Below are positions 55,967 through 63,529 of a stretch of 64,000 bases of DNA, piece after piece. The DNA lies in contig NZ_FNOZ01000002.1 in assembly GCF_900107175.1 (NCBI RefSeq), positions 1 through 64,000 of the forward strand, given 5' to 3'. Within the stretch, counting starts at the first letter, position 1. Every line of letters begins with the position of its first letter. The notes under the pieces were generated by a model. That model was not told where the DNA came from. It did no database searches and saw only the letters and a list, made by a program, of their open reading frames with translations. The DNA is from Modestobacter sp. DSM 44400. GTDB taxonomy: Bacteria > Actinomycetota > Actinomycetes > Mycobacteriales > Geodermatophilaceae. The translations under genes and the position numbers were made by a program.

Positions 55967-56263
55967 GACTCCGGCAGCGCTCCTGCGGCGTCGGCTTCGG
56001 CGCGCACCGCCCGGTATTCCTCAGCCCGGGCCGCGGCCATCCCGACCGCCAGCTCACGCTCCTGGGTCGCCGACGCTGGCTGGGCCAGCCACACCCCGGC
56101 GGTGCCCGCCGCCTCACGCGCCTCGGCGGGATCCACTCCAGCTGTTCGCGCGTACGGGCATCGGCCGGCAGCGCCACCAACCCGTCTGTCAGCTGTGCCA
56201 CACCCAACCGCCGCAGCTTGCGCGACACCGCGCTCCGCGGCGTCGACGGCTCCGCAGCGCCGT
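55967..56263 (-). pseudogene. chrB-like fragment fused to chrA remnant
   Basis: EPSTPRSAVSRKLRRLGVAQ and LTDGLVALPADARTREQLEW resemble the N-terminal part of ChrB chromate-resistance proteins. After a frame change near 56135 it continues EAREAAGTAGVWLAQPA and ERELAVGMAAARAEEYRAVRAE. It then runs into the chrA remnant without chrB's C-terminal domain. About 95 residues remain in two frames. It looks like a deletion joint between chrB and chrA. Confidence 0.6.
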
Positions 56264-56567
56264 CGGGGCGGCTGACGTTCATCCGCACGGCCCAGCGCCT
56301 CGGAGTGACTCCGGACGAGGCGAAGGAGATCCTCCGCTTCCGTGAGCGGGGGAGGCGCCATGTACCTATGTCCGCGGGGTGCTCGACGCGCAGCTCACCA
56401 CGATCGACCGGCGCATCGCCGAGCTGGAGAAGTTACGGGGCCAACTGGTGGAGCTCGCCGCCGAAGCCGACCACCTACCGCCGGCGGCCGCGGGCGTCAC
56501 CTGCCAGCTCATCGAGCACGTTAGGCAGCACGTGGAAGCGTCGGCGCCGCCACAGTCGCAAGCCTGA
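56264..56567 (+). pseudogene. merR-family fragment lacking its DNA-binding domain
   Basis: Begins GRLTFIRTAQRLGVTPDEAKEI, equivalent to the second helical part of Hg/Cu-type MerR proteins, with no helix-turn-helix before it. After FRERG the frame is lost: one G is missing from a G run at about 56348-56352, where RERGEAPC would be expected. It then resumes APCTYVRGVLDAQLTTIDRR to QSQA. It abuts the chrB fragment head to head, so both were cut at the same joint (about 56264). Confidence 0.7.
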
Positions 56568-56601: not shown

Positions 56602-56805
56602 TCAGGCGGAGGTGCCGGTCATCTGGCGGCAGGCCTCGGCGGCCTTGCGGCAGGCCTCCGCGCACTCGGTCTTGCCGGTCCGCTCACATTCCTGCGCGCA
56701 CCGCTGACAGGCGTCGGCGCAAATCCGGCAGAGCTCGGCGGAGCACTGGCCGCCGCGGGCGAGCAGCGGGATGCATGCCTGGCATAGGTCGCCTCGGTCG
56801 AGGGC
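56602..56805 (-). pseudogene. Csp-like copper-storage four-helix protein, 5'-truncated
   Basis: The C-terminal ~67 residues of a Cys-rich four-helix-bundle protein: LCQACIPLLARG, ELCRICADACQRCAQECE, ECAEACRKAAEACRQM, with the CxxxC spacing of Csp proteins. The first helices and a start codon are missing; upstream open frame to 56922 is unrelated Arg-rich sequence. It might still be expressed if a fused start exists, but it looks like a truncated copy. Confidence 0.65.
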
Positions 56806-56852
56806 GCTGCTGTGTGCCCGGCGGCTGCCGCCCGCCCCGGCTCGGCGGGGGT

Positions 56853-57116
56853 TCAGCCGATCCGGCCCAGCGCCACCGAGGCGGCGGCGTCGACGACCAG
56901 CAGTAGCAGCGCAGCGACCCATGGCGGTAGCCGCAGCAGGCGGGTCAGCGGGCCCACGAAAGGATCGGTCAGCGGCATGGCGAAGGGCGACAGACGCCGG
57001 TCCTCACCGGCGCCGGGCAGCACCGGCAGCAGCACCCGCCACACCAGCCAGAACCCGTAGAACCCGAGCACCAGCTGGCCGACTTCGATCAGTACTTCCG
57101 CCCCGAAGCCAGCCAC
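56853..57116 (-). CDS. YggT-family membrane protein
   Basis: 87 residues: two membrane helices with the connecting TDPFVGPLTRLLRLPPWVAAL, the YggT motif in its single-repeat form. Start ATG 57116. In other bacteria YggT proteins relate to the divisome or osmotic stress; in this metal cluster the role is unknown. It is intact. Downstream lies the Csp fragment. Confidence 0.65.
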   Translation of the reverse strand: MAGFGAEVLIEVGQLVLGFYGFWLVWRVLLPVLPGAGEDRRLSPFAMPLTDPFVGPLTRLLRLPPWVAALLLLVVDAAASVALGRIG

Positions 57117-57236
57117 GTCAGCGGGCGTGAGGGGTCGGCGGCCAGGTGCCGGTGCTGTCCTCGGTGCCGGGGGTCCCGGCGGTCGTCGTCCGGGCGGGTC
57201 CTGGCGGTCGGGGGGGTTTCCGGGCTGGGGGTGTCC

Positions 57237-57716
57237 TCACGAGCCGCTCTGGCAGTTGGCGTTGCAGTCCGCGGTGCAGTTGCCCTCCTGCTGGCACTGG
57301 GCGCCGGCCGCCGGCCACAGCTGGCCATCCAGCGGGCGGAACCGCTCGGTGAGCAGCGCCCGGGTGCGCGCGTAGGTGCTCTCGTCCTCCTCGTCGTCAC
57401 CGTGGCCGTCACCGGGGTCGGTCGGTTGGTGGTGGATGAACCGGCCGAAGGTGGCGGCGCAGAAGTCGGCGTAGTCGCGGGTGAACAGAATGAAAGTGTG
57501 CCAGGCGGTGTCGACCGCGCGCGAGGGCGCGACCGGCTGATCGCTGTCGGCGGCGACGGTGAGGAACTTGGCCATCTCGGTGATCCGGTCGCCGGCCTCG
57601 GCGGCGCCGAGCCGTTGATCGGCGGCGAGCTTGGCAACCACCTGCGGGTAGCGATCGGTGACGGAGTGCACGTCAGCGGCCGCCGGAGTGGCTCGATCGA
57701 GGGTCGGGGTGCTCAT
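57237..57716 (-). CDS. glycine-rich-domain-like protein with Cys-rich tail
   Basis: 159 residues from ATG 57716, preceded by AAGGAG. Residues 1-110 match the helical domain with VDTAWHTFILFTRDYADFCAATFG and FIHHQ, as in proteins annotated glycine-rich domain-containing. The last 20 residues hold five cysteines (AQCQQEGNCTADCNANCQ), like a metal-binding or secreted knot-type tail. It lies in the MerR-linked gene set; a metal-binding role is inferred. Function unproven. Confidence 0.7.
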   Translation of the reverse strand: MSTPTLDRATPAAADVHSVTDRYPQVVAKLAADQRLGAAEAGDRITEMAKFLTVAADSDQPVAPSRAVDTAWHTFILFTRDYADFCAATFGRFIHHQPTDPGDGHGDDEEDESTYARTRALLTERFRPLDGQLWPAAGAQCQQEGNCTADCNANCQSGS

Positions 57717-57867
57717 GGGGGTGCTCCTTGCCTTGGGCGAACGGTGTTGTCCTGGGCGCCATCGGCGTGTCCCGCGGATTGTGGGGCCGGTGGCCGTGCC
57801 CTGCACTCCCGCAGCCGCTGCCCGGGGGCGGGATAGGAGGCGCAGGGACGGGGCGAGAGGCGCGGCC

Positions 57868-57894
57868 GCCGCGGTCGCCGCGGTCGCCGCGGTC
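57868..57894. repeat. 9-bp tandem repeat, three copies
   Basis: GCCGCGGTC repeated three times in the 296-bp gap between the DsbA-like and Cys-tail genes. The rest of that gap has no supported gene; a frame reading through it toward the Cys-tail gene is Arg/Ala-rich and lacks similarity. Confidence 0.7.
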
Positions 57895-58012
57895 ACGGAT
57901 CTCGGGCCGGTGCGGGGCCAGCACTTGCACCGGGTCGCGGGCGCTGCACCTGTTCCCGCGCGGGCGTCGGGGGCGATGTCGGTCGCGGGCGATGACGGCA
58001 GCCGCTGCGATA

Positions 58013-58579
58013 TCAGTGCGCCTGCGGCGGGGTGACCCGCTGCCACTCGCGCAGCACCGGCGCCCCGACGGCGAGATGGCGCAGGGTTTCCCACAGCGAC
58101 CAGGCACGGTCGCCGGCCGGGACGTCGTCGAGTTTGACGAACGCCACCTCTCCCGGGCCGAAGGCCAGTGTCGGGGTGCCGAACACCCCCAGTCGTTTGG
58201 CCCGGGCGTGGTCAGCGGCCAGCGCGGCGAACGCCGAGTCATGCTCGAAGCTGCCCAGCCCGGCCTCGCGGCCCAAGCCGAGGATGTCCCCGGTGCTCAG
58301 CCGGCTGGGCTCCTCGTGCCAGGCGGTGAACATCCGCCGCCGATAGCCGGCCACGTCCCCGCCGTCGGCGCGGACCGCCTCGTGCACCGCCAGCGCGATC
58401 AGCGACACGTTGTCGGCCAGATCCGGCCGCTGGAACATCGGCGGGCCGTCATCGTGGCGGCGTTGTTCCAGCAGCGAGAACGGCCGCCATACGACCTCAA
58501 CACCGTCCAACCTGTCCAGCCAGCGCCGGGCCCGGTTGGAGAACCCGCAGGTGTAGTCGAAGAACACCTCGACACTCAT
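58013..58579 (-). CDS. DsbA-family thiol oxidoreductase with CxxS active site
   Basis: 188 residues, FrnE/DsbA-like fold. The active site is CGFS in FDYTCGFSNRARRW at residues 11-14, so the second cysteine is replaced by serine. GVFGTPTLAFG supplies the cis-proline loop. ATG 58579 has AAGGAGG 8 nt upstream. CxxS enzymes usually cannot make disulfides but may bind thiols or metals or act as isomerases or glutathione/mycothiol transferases. Third gene on the MerR-controlled side. Confidence 0.85.
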   Translation of the reverse strand: MSVEVFFDYTCGFSNRARRWLDRLDGVEVVWRPFSLLEQRRHDDGPPMFQRPDLADNVSLIALAVHEAVRADGGDVAGYRRRMFTAWHEEPSRLSTGDILGLGREAGLGSFEHDSAFAALAADHARAKRLGVFGTPTLAFGPGEVAFVKLDDVPAGDRAWSLWETLRHLAVGAPVLREWQRVTPPQAH

Positions 58580-58685
58580 GGAGAGCCTCCTTGCTCGGAG
58601 CTGGATCGGTTAGCCGCTGCCATGCCTGCGGGTGTTCTCGGGCAGCCCGGCGGGCTTGTCCGAGGCGTTCGGCTACCGAGCGGGG

Positions 58686-59191
58686 TCATCGTGGGCGGGC
58701 TGCTCGGTCGCAGGGCCTGGCATCGGCACGTCCCGGCGGTGAGCACGCCGGGCCGCAGCCGTCCGCGGTGGCCGGCCGCGCCGAAACCCGGCCTGCCGGC
58801 GCGGTGGCGGGCGCCACGGCGCGGGGCGGGCAGCAGCCACAACCGCCAGACGCTGCCGAACCTCGATCGTCGATGTACCCATCCATCCCCTCTGCCGGGG
58901 GTGCTGAGGTGAAGCGCTGCGCCTGCTGTAGCGGAACCGGCGCTCGTTCGGCGCGGCGCCGGACCCGGCGGCGGCGGGTGAGGATGGCTGCACCGATCGC
59001 GGCGGTGAGGGCCAACGCAGCCACCGCGCCGCCCAGCCACCACGCCACCCCGGCGCCCACGGCCGCCCCGGCGCCGAGCGCCGCGGCCGGTAGGCCCATG
59101 CAGCACGCCACCGCCGTTAGCCCACCCAGCCCGGTCACCACCGCTGCGACCGCACGTGAGGAACGGGCCGTCCCGACCGCTTGTCGGCCAC
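58686..59191 (-). pseudogene. MerT-like Cys-containing membrane protein, possible frameshift
   Basis: A GTG at 59191 with a strong GAGGAGG right after the previous stop starts VADKRSGRPVPH, but hits a TGA. The membrane protein (AVVTGLGGLTAVACCMGLPAAAL..., then a second helix and RRRR) is in another frame from GTG 59141 on. CC in helix 1 recalls MerT; further Cys clusters GGCGCCP and GCGPACSP follow. Either a 1-nt indel separates RBS from gene, or translation starts at 59141 without an RBS (151 residues). Confidence 0.5.
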
Positions 59192-59207
59192 GGTGCTCTG
59201 GCCCTCC

Positions 59208-59783
59208 TCACTGCGCCACCGGGGCAGCCGCTGCAGCTGGTATCGGGGTGCCGGCGGGCTCCGGCGGCAGTTCGGTGGTGGAACGCCGGAAGACCAGCCA
59301 CAGACCGGCCCACAGGAACGCCCCGTAGAGCAGGTGCACCGCCAGAACCTCCACCGCCGCCCCGGCCCCCAGGCCGAGGGCGAACGGACCCCACCCGACG
59401 TAGGGCAGCACGCTCAGGCCGGCCAGCACCCACAGCGCCAGCGCCGTGCCGAACGCGGTGCCGAACGCCGTGAGGACGCGGAGCCGCACGGCGTCGCGCC
59501 GGCGGCCCAGCGCTGCCACCGCGACCAGCGTCGCGGTCGAGACATACCCGACGTGCAGCAGCAACCCCACCGGCAGCAGCAACTTCATCCCCAGGGTGGC
59601 CTTGCCGAACAGGTGCGCGGCGAACGCCACCGCCAGCGGCATCGGCAGCCGGCTGACCTGCTCCACCGTGGCCACCACCAGCAGCGCCGACAGCGACAGG
59701 GAGATCCCCGCCCCCATCACCGCCGCCGCGACCAGGTCCCGCACGGCCGGTCCGCGCCAGCGTGCGGTCGGTCGATCGACCAT
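59208..59783 (-). CDS. polytopic membrane protein next to the mer operator
   Basis: 191 residues with five hydrophobic segments and a Pro/Ala-rich tail; not recognised. FAAHLFGKATLGMKLLLPVGLLLHVGY and VHLLYGAFLWAGLWL hold buried His residues that could bind a metal, but no Cys pair is present. ATG 59783, GGAGGG upstream. It is the first gene downstream of the MerR-type operator, 54 bp from its -10, so it is probably metal-induced. Confidence 0.7.
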   Translation of the reverse strand: MVDRPTARWRGPAVRDLVAAAVMGAGISLSLSALLVVATVEQVSRLPMPLAVAFAAHLFGKATLGMKLLLPVGLLLHVGYVSTATLVAVAALGRRRDAVRLRVLTAFGTAFGTALALWVLAGLSVLPYVGWGPFALGLGAGAAVEVLAVHLLYGAFLWAGLWLVFRRSTTELPPEPAGTPIPAAAAAPVAQ

Positions 59784-59836
59784 GACGCCCTCCCGTCCAC
59801 GTGTCTCCCCGACGCCCGTCGCGGCGTCCGGGACCA

Positions 59837-59867
59837 GCGTTCACCCCGTACCCGGGTACGGAGTCAA
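59837..59867 (-). promoter_or_regulatory. MerR-type operator/promoter with 19-bp spacer
   Basis: On the minus strand: TTGACT (59862-59867), then directly the perfect 16-bp dyad CCGTACCCGGGTACGG (59846-59861), then GGT and GAACGC (59837-59842) as -10. The -35 to -10 spacer is 19 bp, the over-long spacing that MerR activators correct. TTGACTCCGTAC...GTACGG is the arrangement of classical mercury mer operators. The driven direction is leftward into 59783-56600; merR is on the other side. Confidence 0.88.
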
Positions 59868-59947
59868 GTCCGGGCCTCGGCGGCGACCGCCCCGGCGCTC
59901 GCCCGGCGGCGACGGCGACGGCGACGGCTGGCCGGTCCGTGGCGCGG

Positions 59948-60361
59948 GTGCGCAGTGGGCAGCTGGCCGAGGCCGGCGGGGTGCATGTAGAGACCCTGCG
60001 GTACTACGAGCGCCGCGGGCTGCTGGAGTCCCCGCCGCGGCGCGGATCGGGATACCGCGAGTACCCCGCGGAGGCGGTGCAGCGGCTCCGGCTGATCAAG
60101 CAGGCGCAGGCGCTGGGGTTCACCCTCGATGAGATCGCGGAGTTGCTGGCGCTCAATCCGCACGCCGCGGTGGCCTGCGGCGACATGGAAGACCGCGTCC
60201 GGTCCAAGATGGCCGAACTCGACGAGAAGCTCGACGCCCTCGCCGAGCTCCGCGGCTCACTGGAACGGGTGCTGTGTGAATGCTGCGACGGCCGGCAGGC
60301 TCAGGAGGCCTGTCCGGCCCTGAGCCCCCAGCACGATCCAGCCCCAGCGCGGCGCCGCTGA
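59948..60361 (+). CDS. merR: MerR, Hg(II)-type transcriptional activator
   Basis: 137 residues from GTG 59948: RSGQLAEAGGVHVETLRYYERRGLL is the wing-HTH start. Cysteines match the Hg-binding set of MerR: one in VACGDMED, one in the CECC group and one in EACPAL nine residues after the last of these. The long dimerisation helix (SKMAELDEKLDALAELRGSLE) links them. The longer open frame to 59801 would span the operator, so GTG 59948 is preferred. Autoregulated, most likely. Confidence 0.88.
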   Translation: MRSGQLAEAGGVHVETLRYYERRGLLESPPRRGSGYREYPAEAVQRLRLIKQAQALGFTLDEIAELLALNPHAAVACGDMEDRVRSKMAELDEKLDALAELRGSLERVLCECCDGRQAQEACPALSPQHDPAPARRR

Positions 60362-60489
60362 CCGCGTCCGCGAGTCCGATGCGGGCCTGGAGCCTCGCCC
60401 TGGCCGCGAGCCGTCGGTGACCGGCCCGGATGCTGGGCCCTCCGGCCGGGCGGCGGCCGCACGAGCGCAGCGACTGGAGCGGCCGCTCA

Positions 60490-60895
60490 GCCGCCGACTT
60501 GTTCCGCTCGTGGTGTCTGTCGCGGTGCTCGCGGGTCGCCTTCCCGAGCCCCGGCCGGTACGTGACCGGAGCACAGGGGATCCCGGTCGCGCTCGCCGTT
60601 CTGGTGGCCGCCACCGGGCTCTCGCTCACCACCGGGCAGGTGCGGCAGGCCCGCACCGCAACCGGCCGGCTCCTGGTCGTGCTGGCCAACCACGTCGGTG
60701 GCGCTGCCGGCGCTGGCATGGGCGGGCGGTCATCTCACCGACCGCGGTCCGCTGCGACAAGGTGTCCTGGTCGCCTGCGTGATCCTGGTCGCGCTCGGCG
60801 CGGCGCCACCGTCAGCTCCATTGGGCTGTTGACCCAGTCGGTGCCCCTCATCGCCCTGGTGCTTCTCACCTTCCTGGCCGCGCGCGCCGGTCAAC
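60490..60895 (+). pseudogene. remnants of a bile-acid:Na+ symporter (BASS/ACR3-like) gene
   Basis: Segments of a BASS-type permease appear in three frames: RRLVPLVVSVAVLAG, then GAQGIPVALAVLVAATGLSLTT, then SVALPALAWAGGHLTDRGPLRQGVL up to a stop, then PLIALVLLTFLAARAG. No continuous reading exists. In a metal-resistance region an arsenite-type exporter would fit, but the family branch cannot be fixed from fragments. Confidence 0.55.
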
Positions 60896-60964
60896 GGCCG
60901 GCTGCTCACCATCGGGATTGCCCCCACTCCGTCGGCTGGCCCTCACCTGCCGATTGCGCGACTT

Positions 60965-61004
<40 letters not shown>

Positions 61005-61357
61005 ACCACCGTGTTCGGTCCTGCCGCGGCCGCGCCACTGGGCATCTACGGCGTCCTGGTGCCGCACGACGCTCACGCCCATCCGCACATCCGCGGGCTG
61101 ACATGTCGCAGCACCTGCCTGAGGTTCGCACGCGGGTGGTGGCAGGGCGGCCGGCCGACGCGGCGGCCCGTTTTCGGTTCCCGGGCTCGACGGCGACGTA
61201 ACGGCACAGGTGGCGCAGCCGACACGCCGCAGAACCCCGTCAGTCTTGGCGTCGGGACGTCCCGTGCCGAACTGTCGGTCGTGGAGGCAGGCGAAGGTGG
61301 TGTGGGAGTGCCAAGCCCATTTGGCGCCACATCACTGGGCCCTCAAGTGGGGCCACT
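61005..61357. other. non-coding stretch, nothing supported
   Basis: About 350 bp between the BASS remnant and the SDR fragment. Base composition is somewhat less GC-biased (for example TTTGGCGCCACATCACTGGG) and the open frames through it are Arg-rich with no recognisable motif. I see no promoter, repeat or RNA gene here. Confidence 0.4.
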
Positions 61358-63046: not shown

Positions 63047-63529
63047 TCACCGGTCGCTCGGCGAGAGGAAGCGGTCGAAGATCGCCCCCGTGGCGGCGAT
63101 GACCACGACCTTGTCCAGGACGTCGATGGTGGCCTCCTTGCGCGACCACGTCCACGGCTTGCCGAGCCCGAGTGCGGTGATCATCACCAGGTCCTGGGTG
63201 TAGATGGCGCCGAACGTCGTGGCCGTGCCCCGCAGACCGCGCAGGCCCTGGTGGGCAGCCGCGCCGTAGGCGGCACCCCACATGGCCCCCAGAGCGGTGT
63301 GGGCCGCGTAGTTCAGCCGCTTCATTCCCGCGTCACTGCCCGGCTTGACGGGCAGCAGCTTCTGGACCAGCTGAGCCGGGCCGTAGCTGTCCTCACGCCC
63401 GGAGATGGGCATCTCGACCAGCTTCTGGAACGTGGTCATCACCACGCTGCCGGCCACACCGGCCAGCGCACCTCGACCGAGGTCGGCCACGAGAGAGGGG
63501 CGTCTGGTTGAAGAGGAAACGAGTCGCAT
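63047..63529 (-). CDS. DUF1440/YagU-like membrane protein
   Basis: 160 residues. GRGALAGVAGSVVMTTFQKLVE at the N terminus and AAHTALGAMWGAAYGAAAHQGLRG resemble YagU-type inner-membrane proteins; helices at about 18-35, 75-92, 105-125 and 138-152. ATG 63529. Function unknown. It is divergent from cmtR and could share its operator region. Confidence 0.6.
   Translation of the reverse strand: MRLVSSSTRRPSLVADLGRGALAGVAGSVVMTTFQKLVEMPISGREDSYGPAQLVQKLLPVKPGSDAGMKRLNYAAHTALGAMWGAAYGAAAHQGLRGLRGTATTFGAIYTQDLVMITALGLGKPWTWSRKEATIDVLDKVVVIAATGAIFDRFLSPSDR

Follow-up and report, generated by a model that had tools for sequence, protein, structure and literature searches.

The 64,000-nucleotide window analysed here, a stretch of contig C92 in the 182-contig, 5.0-Mb genome of the actinobacterium Modestobacter sp. 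DSM 44400, carries a gene cluster in which a mer-type operator separates a mercury-type merR gene from a leftward row of membrane and thiol genes. That the cluster is a metal-responsive MerR unit lacking merA is well supported by its operator, by three ligand cysteines in the regulator, by a second copy in the same genome and by the recurrence of its DUF6789-like, MerF/MerT-like and BASS components elsewhere. We give roughly even odds (about 0.5) to the fuller reading, in which the cluster is a mer-like unit that is induced by metal, serves transport and thiol handling, has no reductase of its own and acts on Hg(II) or a similar soft metal. Which metal is handled, in which direction it moves and what each protein does are predictions drawn from sequence.

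The operator and merR are real. Read leftward, positions 59836-59867 give TTGACTCCGTACCCGGGTACGGGGTGAACGCT, and the 22-base core within it, TTGACT-CCGTACCCGGGTACGG, was not matched once in 100 shuffles when up to 3 mismatches were allowed. Elsewhere in the genome this operator occurs at one place only, positions 11646-11667 of contig C68 (the dyad's own opposite strand aside), in a form nearly the same as the window dyad. On plasmid pRA2, the operator that separates merT from a merR annotated as Hg(II)-type has identical dyad arms. A textbook mer operator with a 19-bp spacer had been described at this site in an earlier note on the same DNA; the TTGACT hexamer and the dyad hold up in the shuffles and in their near-uniqueness, but the 19-bp spacer leaves no good -10 element (GAACGC). 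At a spacing of 20 bp the hexamer becomes AACGCT, and the same spacing yields CACAAT in Rhodococcus pBD2, TACCGT in Actinopolyspora and TAGAAT in pRA2.

The merR gene begins at a GTG, either 59939 or 59948, and ends at 60361. Of all the MerR models in NCBIfam, the Hg(II) MerR model TIGR02051 scores best on its product, at 121.9 bits against 103 for ZntR and 93 for CueR; this lies under the TIGR02051 cut-off of 150.85, as does the score of a Rhodococcus MerR that sits beside merB (137.1 bits). In an alignment with the solved Tn501 and Bacillus MerRs, 5crl and 4ua1, the cysteine triad of the window protein is complete, with VACGDM, CECC and EACPAL at the positions of Tn501 C82, C117 and C126, and the loop is one residue longer when the second cysteine of CECC is taken as the ligand. 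The best model, albeit under its cut-off, and the three ligand cysteines uphold the earlier assignment of an Hg(II)-type merR. The closest plasmid MerRs come from Rhodococcus, with 46-49% identity, and one of them adjoins merB. Most MerRs in the 29 nearest loci within the order lack the first ligand cysteine and lie beside a GCCSFF-type protein, often with YnfA; the loci with a full triad (L101, L109 and L114) have no GCCSFF neighbour, and a merB-like match is present at L101 and, weakly, at L114.

These features bear on an alternative in which the MerR is merely mercury-like and the unit combines a sensor with efflux of another soft metal or metalloid (Cd, Zn, Pb, As/Sb) or of a thiol conjugate. 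We consider this improbable. The Zn and Cu MerR models reach 93-103 bits, some relatives of the BASS protein weakly match ACR3 arsenite exporters, Rhodococcus relatives of the MerR adjoin ars genes, and a pair of genes for an ArsR-type regulator and a cation diffusion facilitator (CDF) lies just downstream, running past the window's end. However, the Hg(II) model is the best of the set, the triad is complete and the operator has a mer-type dyad. The metal loop of ZntR has a histidine, and this residue is not conserved in the window MerR.

The C68 operator belongs to a second copy of the cluster, which is collinear with the window in the same orientation (YggT, GRDP-like, DsbA-like, CC, DUF6789-like, operator, merR, BASS) at 68-82% DNA identity. 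Between the copies, dN/dS is 0.34-0.55 for every gene compared, a range that shows purifying selection on the cluster genes. The BASS gene that follows merR is intact on C68 (12213-13136; PF01758, 41.7 bits against a cut-off of 24.3), whereas in the window tblastn finds it in pieces that fall into three frames and lack the middle part. The merR gene on C68 has an internal loss and a frameshift; a visual comparison of the two copies suggests that some 14 bases have been lost behind the GDM codons. The damage is thus complementary, with BASS broken and merR intact in the window, and merR broken and BASS intact on C68. Given this pattern and the near-identical operators, the window MerR may control both operators, and a single working MerR and a single working BASS could serve both copies. 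The broken BASS gene, the second copy and a merA elsewhere in the genome had all escaped the earlier note.

The same damage could be taken to indicate a genomic island in decay that no longer has a function, since the window BASS, the C68 merR, a Csp gene and a second merR are broken and the CC gene has a frame problem. Likewise, neither the cluster nor a P0001 of the window type (P0001 being the DUF6789-like protein) was found in any of the 114 other genomes of the family searched. We regard such decay as very unlikely: in the window merR, the operator and four of the leftward reading frames remain undamaged, and dN/dS stays below 1 for every gene compared.

Table 1. Features of the merR cluster, in window coordinates.
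Feature	Position	Strand	Remark
YggT-like membrane protein P0005	56853..57116	-	PF02325 below cut-off
GRDP-like protein P0004, C-x5-C-x3-C-x3-C tail	57237..57716	-	C68 copy has the same tail
DsbA-domain protein P0003, CGFS active site	58013..58579	-	PF01323
MerF/MerT-like CC membrane protein P0002, Cys-rich tail	58686..59141	-	start codon uncertain, possible frame break 59191-59141
DUF6789-like membrane protein P0001, 191 aa	59208..59783	-	first gene of the leftward operon
Putative weak -10 AACGCT, 20-bp spacing	59836..59841	-	predicted from sequence
mer-type operator	59846..59867	-	-35 TTGACT 59862-59867; 16-bp perfect dyad CCGTACCCGGGTACGG 59846-59861
merR, Hg(II)-type	about 59939..60361	+	PF13411/PF09278; TIGR02051 best model
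Broken BASS/SBF symporter gene (remnant) after merR	60471..61061	+	tblastn pieces

The leftward genes lie where the earlier note had placed them, with neither merA nor merB in the operon, as it had also said (Table 1). The first encodes P0001, previously described as an unknown five-helix membrane protein. It is indeed a membrane protein, but its AF2 model, of moderate confidence (pLDDT 75), has four long helices and one short one (residues 14-40, 50-59, 66-95, 102-125 and 140-170), and by homology it is probably a divergent relative of DUF6789 (PF20587). P0001 has no match in the Pfam scan itself; the distant homologues to which it aligns with E values of 1e-9 to 2e-11 score 29.7 and 32.5 bits on PF20587 (cut-off 27.1). 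It is 63% identical to its C68 copy, and two of its residues, His77 and His150, are invariant in ten homologues. A fold search with the model gave no Foldseek match at E<=0.001, and VIA-align Z values of at most 5.3 were uninformative. Plasmid searches with P0001 and with the DsbA-like P0003 gave no match.

The second gene encodes P0002, which had been called a MerT-like CC protein. A CC membrane protein with a Cys-rich tail is present, but it matches no MerT, MerF or MerC model and its start is unclear. P0002 is 53% identical to its C68 copy with a dN/dS of 0.34, its CC and CGC motifs are kept in Actinopolyspora homologues, and its relatives have only weak MerT/MerC matches. In the frame that leads into the Cys pair, the sole possible normal start is GTG 59141, which has no ribosome-binding site (RBS); GTG 59191 has an RBS yet sits in another frame than the Cys pair. 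The likely start of the gene (a GTG with an RBS, or a GTG overlapping the preceding stop) is off by the same -1 frame in both copies, at 58686-59191 (-) in the window and at L012 10585-11034 (-), so that an assembly error would need to have happened twice. The Actinopolyspora homologues are intact from an ATG, and no classical slippery heptamer was seen by eye in either copy. The offset could reflect an old lesion shared by the copies, an unusual start or a frameshift.

The third product, P0003, scores 45.9 bits on the DSBA domain PF01323 (cut-off 25.6), is 74% identical to its C68 copy and in both copies has the active site CGFS in place of CxxC, in keeping with the CxxS DsbA-like oxidoreductase noticed earlier. 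Across 375 genomes of the class, just one relative was found outside its own genome, in an unrelated setting. The GRDP-like P0004 (63% identity between copies) does carry the Cys tail reported for it, and the tail is kept on C68. As evidence for metal storage this tail is weakened, because Cys-tailed relatives form a wider family that lies beside kinase-like and Nudix genes without a metal context. Lastly, a YggT-like membrane protein, P0005, stands in the expected place with 64% identity between copies, although its PF02325 score of 21.3 bits is under the cut-off.

A Csp fragment had been listed behind these genes in the earlier note; it does not belong to the module. The fragment (56614-56788, -) matches only model positions 90-143 of 151 and faces a frameshifted merR (56218-56567, +), and both are absent from the C68 cluster. 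Its DNA is 72% identical to a Csp gene that is intact and adjoins another merR on contig C62 (L015 2655-3687), and we reject it as a module member in favour of a relic of the Csp-merR pair that is intact there. By sequence, the C62 island contains Csp, two merR genes, an MFS transporter and a heavy-metal P-type ATPase, together with a further DsbA-like gene, the genome's third, which belongs with P0003 to a rare subfamily and has the motif CPYS (L015 5111-5689). With Csp outside the module and Cys-tailed GRDP-like proteins also found in non-metal settings, the proposal that the cluster sequesters metal loses its best evidence.

Neither cluster copy contains merA or merB. A true merA is located on contig C113, with 494 bits against a cut-off of 454, the motif CVNVGC and a C-terminal CC pair; it adjoins a different merR and carries no CCGTAC dyad. 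Mercury reduction is thus probably within the organism's reach, and the module could work together with the C113 MerA. The earlier proposal of a metal module that sequesters, exports or buffers instead of reducing is kept as far as the merA-less MerR unit goes, while its phrase "instead of reducing" is unproven; a genuine merA exists in the same genome. A merA under the same operator was sought and rejected, the operator being found only at C92 and C68. A MerA-like FAD protein on C68 (1214-2614) was likewise rejected as merA; its best score is to dihydrolipoyl dehydrogenase and it ends without a CC pair. On C113 (L045 7252-10551), merA and its merR are followed by a second FAD-dependent reductase with the motif GGECAYWAC and no C-terminal CC pair.

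One way to connect these loci is a split mer system, in which the module is an import accessory that brings Hg(II) in and the C113 MerA reduces it. A genuine merA with its own merR is at hand in the genome, and MerT/MerF-type proteins import Hg(II) for MerA (PMC3466566). However, with its different MerR and no CCGTAC dyad, the C113 merA is not co-regulated by the window operator, BASS and DsbA proteins fall outside known mer import, and the DUF6789/BASS core recurs at loci where no merA is seen within the stretches read. We judge a split system unlikely.

As no other family member searched yielded the cluster, the test suggested in the earlier note, merA found just outside the operon in close relatives, is inapplicable as stated. 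Distant relatives of P0001 occur in Actinopolyspora, Haloechinothrix, Rubrobacteraceae, a Gemmatimonadetes metagenome-assembled genome and haloarchaea. They adjoin merR in Actinopolyspora, Haloechinothrix and Rubrobacteria-like genomes, and BASS in Actinopolyspora and haloarchaea; the haloarchaeal BASS loci have an HxlR-like regulator in place of MerR. Across 16 DUF6789-like loci, MerR was adjacent at 9, BASS at 8, a MerF/MerT-like CC protein at 6 and a GCCSFF-like protein at 7, raw counts with no random-gene baseline that include both copies of the present genome and several non-independent loci from one genus. A MerR-type promoter lies directly upstream of the DUF6789-like gene in Actinopolyspora, and in A. 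mortivallis both inner arms of the dyad have changed together. On the Nocardioides plasmid pNOCA01, a row of genes encodes BASS, a GCCSFF protein, MerR, a CC protein, a redoxin and CcdA. We tentatively suggest, with considerable doubt, that DUF6789-like and BASS proteins together form a reductase-independent transport system for Hg(II) or soft metals, possibly as metal-thiol species, across Actinobacteria, Rubrobacteria-like bacteria and haloarchaea, with varied sensors (MerR in bacteria, HxlR-like in archaea) and varied thiol-redox partners (DsbA-like, glutaredoxin).

Several side observations touch on these loci. Small proteins with GCCSFF, RCCPF or QCCAF motifs form a family whose genes recur, in bacteria as well as haloarchaea, as neighbours of MerR and DUF6789-like genes; examples lie at L091 1238-1591, L029 7405-7872, L048 8598-8945 and L047 2326-2559, and those scanned reach no Pfam cut-off. 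In the present genome, the cluster is followed by the ArsR-type regulator gene (C92 63599-63928) and then, just beyond the window, by the CDF gene (64904-65638); a gene similar to the latter is found near the DUF6789-like gene of A. mortivallis (L030 4031-4993). A membrane gene that by eye looks like YagU/DUF1440 lies near each cluster copy, at 63047-63529 (-) in the window and at L012 8527-8991 (-).

In the mechanism we propose, MerR would sit on the dyad and, once Hg(II), a similar soft metal or an organomercurial fills its three cysteines, untwist the over-long spacer and turn on the leftward genes. Like MerT and MerF, the CC protein would use its Cys pairs to pass the metal along, across the membrane or within it, and the DUF6789-like protein and BASS would provide export or another transmembrane step, which we propose as a joint one as the two recur together in other genomes. 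The DsbA-like protein may handle metal-thiol species or oxidised thiols. A thiol oxidoreductase in a MerR regulon is plausible given Pseudomonas pseudoalcaligenes, in which a MerR site is predicted upstream of dsbA and dsbA is induced by mercury (PMC10433974).

A number of observations weigh against this reading. The window -10 is weak at either spacing, and the Zn and Cu models also score on the MerR. In a tree of MerR proteins the window protein is set on a long branch between two groups and is not firmly placed; our assignment of the metal therefore draws on the ligands and the operator instead of the tree. Cysteine is absent from the DUF6789-like protein, P0002 has no MerT, MerF or MerC match in Pfam or NCBIfam, and neither copy of the CC gene shows a clear start. 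One copy each of BASS and merR is broken, and the system may be in decay.

As a rule merA is the gene from which mercury resistance is read, and surveys based on it would miss merA-less MerR units if these detoxify or traffic mercury by way of other membrane proteins. If the proposal is true, the uncharacterised DUF6789-like family would gain its first testable function, and the two copies with complementary lesions and an exact operator make the regulatory claim easily testable. We found no description of the cluster in the literature, our coverage of which is incomplete. A review of mer gene content names merT, P, C, E, F, G, H, B, D and TRASH genes (PMC3466566), and a later mer survey does not mention DsbA (PMC8261052). 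The absence of merA alone is not new, as merR-merT-merP without merA is already annotated on pRA2; as far as the papers and databases searched show, what is new is the composition, with DUF6789-like, BASS and DsbA-like proteins under a mer-type switch.

With the canonical mer operon of the Tn501 type (merR, merT, merP, merA), the window shares a MerR with three ligand cysteines, a divergent operator and an over-long spacer; in place of merA, merP and a true merT it has other membrane proteins and a thiol oxidoreductase. The pRA2 cassette of Pseudomonas alcaligenes (merR-merT-merP-GDCCVxC, beside a Tn3-family transposase) resembles it in its divergent Hg(II) merR, its dyad arms, its CC membrane transporter and its lack of merA, but has true MerT and MerP and no DUF6789-like, BASS, DsbA, GRDP or YggT gene. 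The Nocardioides pNOCA01 and Actinopolyspora clusters have in common with the window a MerR, a MerF/MerT-like CC protein and BASS with no merA nearby, and in addition thiol redox genes (Nocardioides) or a DUF6789-like gene (Actinopolyspora). They differ in gene order, in a MerR without the first ligand cysteine, in a GCCSFF protein, often with YnfA, and in having no GRDP-like or YggT gene. Although the Rhodococcus merR loci (on an RL1 plasmid with merB, and on pBD2 beside ars) have the operator before merR itself, with merB or an unrelated small protein as neighbour, they share with the window the three ligand cysteines and a very similar operator.

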